Shown: positions 44,451-63,204 of the stretch, piece by piece
How positions within the stretch are numbered: the first letter of the stretch is position 1
How the letters are laid out: the number at the start of each line of letters is the position of its first letter
NCBI GenBank assembly: GCA_028554795.2
Contig: JAPYKE020000037.1
Location: 3,846,501-3,910,500, forward strand
Reading direction: 5' to 3'
DNA from: Sinohyriopsis cumingii
Lineage: Eukaryota; Mollusca; Bivalvia; Unionida; Unionidae
DNA: 64,000 nt
Made by a program: the position numbers and the translations under genes
The notes under the pieces: generated by a model
The model's database searches: none
Seen by the model: the letters and a program-made list of their open reading frames with translations, nothing else
Told to the model about the DNA's origin: nothing

Positions 44451-44884
44451 TCAAAGATACAGCCTGTACATAAACGTTGCAAGCATTGTTATGATAATAA
44501 AAACCAATGTTATTTTGACATCGGTAATCAGACTCAGCAAGGCAGCCATGATAACACTAGCAGAAACCACAAGGACGAACTTGTTATCAAGGTCAAACCC
44601 GCGTCTAGCAGCCTTGGCATCAAGATGATTAAGAGTAAATTCGTTTGCGAAACCGAGCATCTTGTGTAGAGCCAGAAGTGCCAAGTTGTCGATTGTGTCA
44701 TTCAAAACCTCTTCCTTATCGTAGTTTTGGATGGGCATGACATCCTTTTGAGATATGCCTAGCATCTGGGATACCTTTTCCACTGCCATTTTGATCTCCG
44801 TACACTCATATACTCTGGAAATGTTATAGTCAACTTCTTTGACCATTTCGTCAATCTTTGTCAACAAGACAACACGCGGGATAC
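44451..44884 (-). CDS. Module C, terminal exon (G4 and membrane hairpin)
   Basis: 434 bp, entry phase 1, ends TGA. Acceptor ATTTGACAG. It encodes [14 protein letters not shown] (TKxD), then DVMPIQNYD and [16 protein letters not shown]. In place of the PWRE linker of modules A and B it has a basic spacer (AKAARRGF) and two hydrophobic stretches. These are [18 protein letters not shown] and [20 protein letters not shown], separated by about four residues (TDVK). They are predicted to form a helical membrane hairpin or two short transmembrane helices at the extreme C-terminus. Confidence 0.85.
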
Positions 44885-62800: not shown

Positions 62801-63204
62801 TTAAAATAAATAAAACCAAGAGTCAGAATTTCATATATCGCCAAGAAACAAACAACAAAAACAAAACATCAGGATCCATTTATGTTTCAATACCTCATGA
62901 GTAAATAATGATTCCCTCCAAGGATCAATATGAAATGATGCTTCTTTCTTTATCAAAAAGTCGTTTGCAAATCCAAGTATCTGATCAAGAGCCAGAAGTG
63001 CCAGGCTGTCGACCTTTTCGTTCAGACACACCTCAGTCTCATAGTTTTTGATGGGCCAGACATTATTTTGTGGTACGCCAAGTGTTCCAGATACATTTTC
63101 TACTGCCTTCTTGACCTTCGGACATTGAAAAACTGCGGACACGTCCTCATTGACAGCGTTAGACAGTGTGTCGATCTTTGTTAAGACGATAACCTTGGGA
63201 ATTT
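44451..63204 (-). CDS. Tandem IFI44-like GTPase gene (at least three modules, C-terminal membrane tail), 5' partial
   Basis: Nine exons join in one open frame of about 696 residues, read from 63204 down to a TGA at 44453-44451. All introns begin GT and end AG, and all phases agree. Modules: (A) the C-terminal exon of one GTPase domain; (B) a complete domain of 277 residues (61451-56643); (C) a complete domain plus tail of 316 residues (56012-44451). Each domain has P-loop GPVxAGKSS, a DxCG switch II, VVFVFD, LTK[IV]D in the NKxD position and a P-I-x-NY block. These are the hallmarks of interferon-induced protein 44-like GTPases. IFI44-family proteins act in innate immune responses in vertebrates; the role here is inferred only. 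The alternative is three separate neighbouring genes, but no start exon is seen between modules. Earlier exons, perhaps a TLDc domain, lie outside the window. Confidence 0.75.
46956..47103. repeat. Long (AT)n microsatellite in the last intron
   Basis: About 74 uninterrupted AT dinucleotides, the longest such run in the window. It creates a Tyr/Ile frame on the minus strand that is not a gene. Confidence 0.97.
48130..48142. repeat. Poly(C) run
   Basis: Twelve or so C residues inside the last intron. Confidence 0.9.
48865..49036 (-). CDS. Module C, exon 3
   Basis: 172 bp, phase 0 to 1. Acceptor TTGAAACAG, donor AAG|GTAATA. It begins [20 protein letters not shown] and contains [10 protein letters not shown] and IPQSVWDKL. 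It is separated from exon 2 by a 4.8 kb intron swollen by a LINE insertion. Confidence 0.87.
49531..49591. repeat. (CATA)n microsatellite, left of LINE copy 2
   Basis: Twelve or more CATA units ending CATTCATCCATCC. The same microsatellite continues on the far side of the LINE from 53599. Confidence 0.93.
49592..53598 (+). mobile_element. I/Nimb-like non-LTR retrotransposon, copy 2, inserted in the gene intron
   Basis: It begins in the spacer between ORF1 and ORF2 (CCTCTGCGAAAGGTCTAACC, matching copy 1 at about 3292) and ends in an (ATCA)n tail. CATTCATCCATCC occurs on both sides (49579-49591 and 53599-53611), consistent with a 13-bp target-site duplication. Because the target is a tetranucleotide repeat, chance is not excluded. 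It lies in module C intron 2, antisense to the gene. ORF1 and the promoter-bearing 5' UTR are missing. Confidence 0.9.
49642..53322 (+). CDS. LINE ORF2: endonuclease, reverse transcriptase and RNase H, intact
   Basis: A full 1226-residue frame. Its APE endonuclease spans about 1-220 ([37 protein letters not shown]). The reverse transcriptase spans about 480-760 ([49 protein letters not shown]). The RNase H spans about 950-1085 ([31 protein letters not shown]), with catalytic D-E-D-D positions present. A CX2CX7HX4C finger ([17 protein letters not shown]) is near the C-terminus. The start ATG is at 49642. No stop or frameshift is seen. It could encode active enzyme if transcribed, but the copy lacks ORF1 and an element promoter and sits antisense in a host intron. 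Confidence 0.93.
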   Translation: MKNTIIQWNCRGLKANYNDLLLLLNEHDPAVLCLQETFLKDTDNITFKNYSLFNTCSPNVDRASGGVSVIVNNRAPHSFIPLNTNLQAIAVSVTLHRVITFCSIYLPPNTNLVPNELDNLVQQLPAPFVLLGDFNAHNVLWGSNHVSDRGHKVEDFISRHDLCLYNTKTPTYLHPGTGTYTCIDLTICSPSLLLDYEWKVADDLHSSDHFPISLVNHNSTIDEVIPQWNLKKADWAKFETLYKTRLNEDTVFNVNDPIQHFTSILTDIAEESIPKSSANCKRSLKPWLTKECKEAIRQRREALKKFNNHPTPENLSKYRILRAKARRTIKESKRASWMKYVSSLNSRSSIKKVWDTIRKINGKRKHNSFRHLKVNNNNLSSKRDIANVLADTFSKNSSSSNYSEAFQKLKTQKEKSRLKFTSNNSESYNQLFSLSELMEALDKAHDTSAGPDKIHCQFLKHLPESSLTSLLKLFNDLWITGNLPKIWKEATVIPVPKPGKDSEDPTNYRPIALTSCMCKTMERMINSRLVWYLETNNLISPFQSGFRYGRSTNDHLVRLETFIRDAFIKKEHLVAVFFDLEKAYDTTWKYGILKDLHDLGLKGRLPSFISNFLSDREFKVRVGCTLSDLHEQEMGVPQGSILSVTLFNIKINNITKCLTPGVDCSLYVDDFLICYRSKHMHTIERQLQQNINKIQNWASTNGFKFSKSKTVCMHFCQLRRHHDEPKLTLDGTPIPVVEETKFLGIIFDRKLTFIPHLKNLKAKCLKALDLLKVVAHTDWGADRKVILNLYRTFIRSKLDYGCVVYGSARKSYLKMLDPVHHQGIRLALGAFKTSPCESLLAEANEPPLSHRKEMLSAQYALKLKSNPLNPAFSAVFQPKYKTLYENKPNAIPSFGIRISSSFDTTNIDLSKIQKTSISETPPWLIKQPKVRFTLHDGKKSETNPSIFHNSYHELLTEFKNYTRIYTDGSKDEEKAAAAFVCGNHTTQVRLPNGASIFTAEIRAIDLALQHIEKNRILNSIIFSDSLSVLQSLHNRKLENPLLKNILVKNTELSVSHNIIYCWLPSHIGIKGNEKADLVAKMALSQEPSNFKIPYTDFKPCIRKFLRQKWQASWNDAVNNKLHAIKPTLGEWTPSYRTIRREEVVIARIRIGHTYITHTHILKGEDPPECVSCNEPFTVKHFMIECFDLQPTRDRYYIVHDMKELFDNINITRIIEFLKAVNIYSKL
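53599..53783. repeat. (CATA/CATG/CATC)n microsatellite, right of LINE copy 2
   Basis: Mixed ATCC, CATA and CATG units. It accounts for the Met-Tyr-Val-Cys repeat frame on the minus strand. Confidence 0.95.
53839..53985 (-). CDS. Module C, exon 2 (switch II)
   Basis: 147 bp, phase 0 to 0. Acceptor CTTTCAG, donor GAG|GTTGGT. It begins [20 protein letters not shown], then DICGIEE (G3 with Ile in place of Thr), and ends EGNIPDGYE. The longer plus-strand frame over this exon is a shadow. Confidence 0.88.
54217..54470 (-). mobile_element. tRNA-derived SINE (family 1) in module C intron 1
   Basis: Near-complete minus-strand copy: (GTT)n tail at the low end, body with GAAGCTACTGGCAAGCTTTC in plus reading, and head ending near CGGTGCCCCGGG. 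The A- and B-box-like segments are recognisable on the minus strand. It is in the same orientation as the host gene. Confidence 0.87.
55000..55326 (+). pseudogene. LINE ORF2 C-terminal remnant (RTE-like) in module C intron 1
   Basis: Two offset frames read [10 protein letters not shown] and then [19 protein letters not shown], followed by NIWKKFE. This is the RWIGHxxR and GKRKRGRPKxTW pattern found at the C-terminus of RTE-like and related LINE proteins. The 84-codon frame at 55072-55326 is part of it and is not a host gene. Only this end of the element is visible. Confidence 0.6.
55815..56012 (-). CDS. Module C, exon 1 (P-loop)
   Basis: 198 bp, phase 0 to 0. Acceptor CTTCTTTACAG, donor GAG|GTAAAA. 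It starts [16 protein letters not shown] and carries [20 protein letters not shown]. The residue before AGKS is Gln rather than the Gly of module B. It ends SSITKE. Confidence 0.88.
56643..56956 (-). CDS. Module B, exon 4 (G4, PWRE linker)
   Basis: 314 bp, phase 1 to 0. Acceptor TTGGTAG, donor GAG|GTAGAT. It encodes [14 protein letters not shown] (TKxD) and IWPIKNYE, then [18 protein letters not shown], ending [12 protein letters not shown]. Read-through past the donor reaches a stop after only ten codons. The donor is at the same place as in module A, so splicing to the next P-loop exon at 56012 (631 bp away) is the better reading. Confidence 0.83.
57447..57618 (-). CDS. Module B, exon 3
   Basis: 172 bp, phase 0 to 1. 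Acceptor CACCTAG, donor AGAG|GTACGT. It begins [20 protein letters not shown] and contains the buried strand [10 protein letters not shown] and VPKSVWTKV. The split last codon (G) joins the next exon to give Gly-x-Ile-Pro-Lys or Glu-Ile-Pro-Lys. Confidence 0.87.
58639..58785 (-). CDS. Module B, exon 2 (switch II)
   Basis: 147 bp, 49 codons, phase 0 to 0. Acceptor TATGTAG, donor CAG|GTATGC. It begins [20 protein letters not shown], then DTCGIEE (G3/DxxG), and ends DGNVPDGYQ. Its length matches the paralogous exon at 53839-53985 exactly. Confidence 0.88.
61254..61451 (-). CDS. Module B, exon 1 (P-loop)
   Basis: 198 bp, phase 0 to 0. Acceptor TTTATCTATAG, donor GTG|GTAAAG. It starts [15 protein letters not shown] and carries [20 protein letters not shown], the Walker A (G1) motif binding the nucleotide phosphates. 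It ends AVSSLTTV. A Met occurs six codons in, but the acceptor and alignment with module C show that the exon starts upstream of it. Confidence 0.88.
62894..63204 (-). CDS. Module A, exon 4 (G4 and C-terminal subdomain)
   Basis: Acceptor TTACAG at 63210-63205, donor GAG|GTATTG at the low end. It encodes [12 protein letters not shown], the TKxD guanine-specificity motif, then VWPIKNYE and [17 protein letters not shown]. It ends [11 protein letters not shown]. Entry phase 1, exit phase 0. In IFI44-family proteins a PWR-like motif precedes the next P-loop region rather than ending the protein, which supports joining to the exon at 61451. The pyrimidine-rich stretch upstream of the acceptor is itself a TCTA/TCTG microsatellite. 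Confidence 0.85.

Follow-up and report, generated by a model that had tools for sequence, protein, structure and literature searches.

Interferon-type GTPases usually assemble on a membrane as many single-domain copies. Immune GTPases with several units in one chain are already known as a kind, namely the tandem IRG proteins and GIMAP8. The tandem IRG proteins of the mouse (Irgb2-b1, Irgb5-b4) consist of two full GTPase units under one promoter, and the second unit has no promoter elements of its own (PMC1297648, PMC6420625). GIMAP8 carries three G domains per protein and, like GIMAP2, belongs to the AIG1 family. The gene described here lies in a 64,000-nucleotide stretch (the window) of the mussel Sinohyriopsis cumingii, an animal not known to have classical interferon, at C37:3846501-3910500 of a 2.9-Gb assembly (C37 being contig JAPYKE020000037.1), and very probably encodes a string of IFI44-like G domains on a single transcript. 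It resembles the tandem IRG proteins in placing multiple GTPase units on one polypeptide and in bearing MGxxxS on the first unit, and differs from them in its GTPase family, in having more than two units, and in that a mussel unit spans four exons whereas each IRG unit is one long exon. With GIMAP8 it shares the presence of three G domains in one protein, albeit from a different family.

The window gene (locus 1) is read from nine minus-strand exons with nine AG acceptors, eight GT donors and a stop that closes the ninth exon, which together give an unbroken frame of 696 residues. An earlier note, made from the letters alone, had proposed this single open frame and the phase-0 junctions between modules (A4 into B1 and B4 into C1), and exon borders and exon phase now bear out both. 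Modules A, B, and C are mutually homologous, and B and C have identical lengths for exons 1-3 (198, 147, and 172 nt). The PWRE motif of the linkers stands 6-7 residues ahead of the donor, and the intron between B and C is 630 bp long. The region studied comprised the window together with C37:3700001-3850000 and C37:3910001-4010000 (310 kb), and was searched with the exon peptides. Two paralogous loci (loci 2 and 3) lie on the same contig and strand as locus 1 and carry modules Z-A-B-C; locus 2 begins inside the window, and its remaining exons lie to the left of it. The exons within the window, numbered from its first letter, are as follows.

62894..63204, minus strand: exon A4, closing module A, with G4 TKID, C-terminal helices, the linker, and a phase-0 donor into B1
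61254..61451, minus strand: exon B1, P-loop of module B (GPVGAGKSS)
58639..58785, minus strand: exon B2, G3 of module B (DTCG)
57447..57618, minus strand: exon B3 of module B
56643..56956, minus strand: exon B4, G4 of module B (TKVD) and linker, with a phase-0 donor into C1
55815..56012, minus strand: exon C1, P-loop of module C (GPVQAGKSS)
53839..53985, minus strand: exon C2, G3 of module C (DICG in locus 1)
48865..49036, minus strand: exon C3 of module C
44451..44884, minus strand: exon C4, G4 of module C, followed by the two hydrophobic segments of the C-terminal tail and the stop codon
11687..11711, minus strand: start exon of locus 2 (MGSFYSTP and the first base of a split Glu codon, donor GTATGT)

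Extension to the right, which the earlier note had suggested as a way to count modules, completes module A just beyond the window edge and brings locus 1 to three G domains. The module sets of the three loci read through in phase over 869 (locus 1), 1144 (locus 2), and 1145 residues (locus 3), and among the 33 within-module donors all are GT except one GC (B3 of locus 2). The G3 motif of module C is DTCG in locus 3 and in Sinanodonta, as opposed to DICG in locus 1. In all three loci, a stop is present in the last exon only.

Two exons precede module A in locus 1. Open-frame tblastn between loci returned many matches without coding meaning, those between loci 1 and 2 being uninformative because the two are too similar, and exon 2 came to light through the comparison with locus 3. 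This conserved exon ends in PWRKLEFSDSE, PWRELKFSDSE, or PWRELEFSDSE directly before a GTAAAA donor, and its length (110, 77, and 98 nt in loci 1, 2, and 3) is 2 mod 3 each time. The start exon was sought with a pattern derived from the N-terminus of the Sinanodonta homologue (MGQLFSTPEP), which had been seen beforehand, so the search was targeted rather than blind. Over both strands of the 310 kb the pattern gave MGAKHSTP, then G (locus 1), and MGSFYSTP, then G (locus 2), with no third match; locus 3 has no start exon recognizable by this pattern, its upstream part giving no match. Looser patterns found three more places (C37 3755344, 3752804, and 3810833), none of which adjoins a first module. 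With 45 residues before the first module in locus 1 and 34 in locus 2, the full proteins have 914 residues (three modules) and 1178 residues, respectively.

Gene models of two other mussels also run across module borders. The Sinanodonta woodiana model P0001 (ACJMK2_007501, 1182 aa) has four modules with no gap at any border and is 84% identical to locus 2 over its whole length; like locus 2, it has the MGxxxS head, Z-A-B-C G domains, W-R linkers, and a hydrophobic tail, and it keeps the fourth module, Z, that locus 1 is without. A Potamilus gene model runs through two module borders. Together with exon phase, the single start exon (seen in loci 1 and 2), the single stop of each locus, and the conserved borders, these models support the proposal of one gene for a concatenated protein of at least three modules. 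The further claim that such a protein had not been described stands in part: the four-module architecture is present in public databases, unnamed (P0001, a hypothetical protein), and fish and lizard models exist, but no description of tandem IFI44-like GTPases was found among the matches listed in open PMC papers.

The ratio of nonsynonymous to synonymous substitution rates (dN/dS) between loci 1 or 2 and locus 3 is 0.25-0.29 for module A, 0.18 for B, and 0.35-0.39 for C, and that for module Z between loci 2 and 3 is 0.41. For loci 1 and 2, which differ by 12-15 changes in each module, the ratio is 0.20-0.39. Ratios of 0.18-0.41 indicate that the modules are under purifying selection. A midpoint-rooted tree was built from 36 hand-chosen rows: 11 modules from the three loci, 9 from P0001, P0002, and P0027, and a further 16 taken from 14 additional proteins, leaving 27 of the 44 homologous proteins outside it. 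In it, the rows of each module group together as a single clade, whatever their locus or species, with support of 99-100: Z (4 rows, the Potamilus one a 104-residue piece), A (6), B (5), and C (5). Since each module is one clade in this way, a single unit had probably given rise to all four by the time Sinanodonta and Sinohyriopsis cumingii parted, and, to judge from the Z-A-B fragment of Potamilus, probably also before that genus split off. The 20 tandem modules as a whole are likewise one clade (99/97), placed beside a TLDc-bearing IFI44-like protein of S. woodiana.

Duplication of the loci probably came later than that of the modules. Across their longest shared stretches, identity between loci 1 and 2 is about 96-97%. 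Locus 1 aligns with locus 2 until C37 3913992 and resumes at 3914124; in this interval locus 2 carries 6.5 kb that include all four exons of Z. Because locus 3, Sinanodonta, and Potamilus all have Z, the three-module state of locus 1 is read as a loss, which would have left the gene in frame because the unit borders are phase 0. The proposed origin is thus a single G-domain unit of four exons, duplicated inside the gene, whose phase-0 borders would allow whole units to be gained or lost in frame.

An unlikely alternative to a single full-length product is that one gene has internal promoters or poly(A) sites and yields functional isoforms of one, two, or three modules. The phase-0 borders would permit this, and a neighbouring Sinanodonta model, P0002 (ACJMK2_007500, 798 aa), is without the 5′ part, although it may simply be incomplete. 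In loci 1 and 2, an IRF-like motif stands 141 bp before the start exon, which is suggestive only as promoter evidence; another lies 183-184 bp upstream of C1 in the same two loci, which makes the first weak as a sign of induction, and the motif, GAAANNGAAA, has 75 copies in the 310 kb (0.24 per kb). The copy before C1 speaks as much for an internal start. Short isoforms are, however, at odds with the structure of Z, A, and B, none of which ends in a separate terminal exon whose stop is conserved as far as locus 3.

Considerably less probable is a tandem array of independent single-GTPase genes, each driven by a promoter of its own, in which the joined frame is a by-product of recent duplication. 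The motif before C1 fits this too, as do an internal Met in A1 and B1, IFI44-like exons clustered elsewhere in the genome, and an internal MGDIFSTPQP in the lizard model P0003, which resembles a fused second start and means that fused gene models may occur in the family. Separate starts and ends were looked for and rejected: the start-exon search and a search for an in-frame ATG over the 600 bases upstream of each P-loop exon gave a single ATG, ahead of A1 in locus 3 only, and the positions of read-through stops are not conserved, the lengths agreeing between loci 1 and 2 and differing from locus 3.

A decaying gene or an assembly artefact, in which loci 1 and 2 would be two haplotypes assembled next to each other and the loci would be pseudogenes, is very improbable: the near-identity of these loci, the missing start exon of locus 3, and the presence of an orphan module C copy are in its favour, but the module frames are open in three loci with the dN/dS values given above, loci 1 and 2 are set apart by one module and by insertions in introns (a difference of three vs. 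four modules that, were they alleles, would be a polymorphism), and Sinanodonta too has two consecutive models, ACJMK2_007500 and 007501.

By sequence, the mussel modules share their G-domain family with IFI44 and IFI44-like proteins, in which TLDc and a PWR linker accompany a single G domain. The N-terminal module of P0001 retrieved interferon-induced protein 44-like homologues, among which the modules fall in the tree. All protein searches covered lengths of 0.55-1.75 times the query, and two of the three scored the top 8000 and 7997 candidates by number of shared words, so further multi-module proteins may exist. PWR or SWR precedes each of the four modules in P0001, the W-R motif is found in window exons A4 and B4, and module Z of locus 3 ends in AWR; among the 17 proteins from the single-domain search (P0028-P0044, some partial), 10 have PWR ahead of the P-loop. 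The tandem proteins differ from IFI44 in lacking TLDc, in having three or four G domains, and in their hydrophobic tail, which none of P0028-P0044 has. The first module has only 45 (locus 1) or 34 (locus 2) residues ahead of it, and TLDc is not among the matches listed for P0001 (25 of 39 Pfam families) or in the listed part of its precomputed domains.

The modules are predicted to have the G-domain fold of TRAFAC GTPases that dimerize on membranes (Toc34, mitofusin, BDLP). Module A passes the MMR_HSR1 cut-off of Pfam and module C fails it, and a search of PDB sequences with one module gave weak matches to four Rab-type entries. With 14.8 bits against the IIGP profile (cut-off 24) and 15.3 bits against the AIG1 profile (cut-off 27), module A falls outside both the IRG and AIG1 families. 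The whole of P0001 does pass IIGP at 27.2 bits, with a best stretch that covers the P-loop region 57-83 only, and its 38.3 bits against AIG1 (best stretch 59-135) are read as a sum across its four similar P-loops.

IFI44-like models with two or three G domains occur in fish and a lizard (Halichoeres P0006, Nibea P0015, Megalops P0004, and Anolis P0003), all without the hydrophobic tail of the mussel proteins; P0006 keeps TLDc, unlike the latter. P0003 (Anolis carolinensis, 849 aa) starts with MGGLFSKPEP, like the mussel proteins, and the head motif appears to be common to lizard and mussel. In view of its internal MGDIFSTPQP repeat, P0003 is possibly a fused gene model or a tandem protein with repeated heads.

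The last exon adds two hydrophobic segments, with 19-residue Kyte-Doolittle means of up to 2.53. Among the 44 homologous proteins, values above 2 in the final 70 residues occur in P0001, P0002, and the Ig-type fish protein P0026. A single AlphaFold2 model of P0001, made with an alignment of 30 of the 44 homologues, renders these segments as helices (1138-1156 and 1160-1181). It places four G domains on flexible linkers, stretches of which have a predicted local distance difference test score below 50, in no fixed arrangement (predicted template-modelling score 0.38), and no fixed contact between modules is seen in this monomer. Domain 46-294 dominates the matches listed in the VIA-align 2 structure comparison, and no IFI44 structure is among the 50 listed.

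The explanation we prefer, with moderate confidence as a whole, is that one gene encodes a multi-GTPase, membrane-held, assembly-forming defence protein. For locus 1 this would mean a short head with MGxxxS at the N-terminus, then three IFI44-like G domains strung on W-R linkers, and a hydrophobic hairpin at the C-terminus. In IRG proteins, MGxxxS serves as a signal for myristoylation according to PMC1297648, and by analogy the mussel head may work as one. Tethering by the tail, perhaps with a lipid on the head, would hold the chain on a membrane, which we consider reasonably probable. The G domains would bind GTP and pair within a chain or between chains, perhaps dimerizing on the membrane in a GTP-dependent manner as in Toc34, mitofusin, and BDLP, and linked modules would assemble at a lower concentration than single ones; GTP-driven assembly is tentative, its chance being somewhat short of even. 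A role as effector or decoy in cell-autonomous defence is moderately likely.

A rather unlikely extension is a doubly anchored concatemer, with head lipid and tail hairpin in one membrane, that would build a short polymer from its own modules in cis, assembly size being tuned by whether a copy has three or four of them. If true, this would be an immune GTPase with its polymer length written in the gene. The module string, three or four by paralogue and conserved in order between genera, offers a natural tool for testing how assembly size governs such proteins, and suggests that tandem fusion of immune GTPases has arisen again, outside IRG and GIMAP.

Related copies are found elsewhere. An orphan partial copy of module C (exons 2-4 and the hydrophobic tail) lies upstream of locus 3, at C37:3791813-3786356 on the minus strand. 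Searching the genome with its own sequences gave at least 140 matches on at least eight contigs. The C4 exon had 46 matches, of which four, all on C37, are full-length; the match on C5 extends stop-free to residue 132 of 144, and those on C2, C4, and C17 reach residues 128-139, each with one or two internal stops. A second, diverged two-module IFI44-like locus is present at C5:150667413-150705750 (plus strand; 24 kb of it examined), and a W-R linker marks the border between its modules. There, an e4 exon ends AWRQPTPHLSRE before GTAATG, a phase-0 P-loop exon follows an AG 520 bp on, and the second module closes with hydrophobic segments and then a stop.

Within locus 1, intron C2-C3 contains a long interspersed nuclear element (LINE)-type frame of 1230 aa with endonuclease, reverse transcriptase, and RNase H (49630-53322, plus strand), which is probably young because the corresponding intron in locus 2 measures just 754 bp. 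A long (TA)n run occupies about 46955-47105 in intron C3-C4. A related LINE copy (2407-6692, plus strand) falls by position within the first intron of locus 2; its ORF1-like frame (2407-3279) contains CCHC-like motifs, and its ORF2 frame is shorter. The DNA that separates locus 1 from locus 2 holds a 254-aa frame (24293-25057, minus strand) that matches fibronectin type III (26.4 bits, cut-off 25) and has a hydrophobic stretch. Broken retroelement pieces are found at 35606-38729 and 30247-31482 (both minus strand), with matches to reverse transcriptase, weak ones of integrase type, and a further reverse transcriptase frame.
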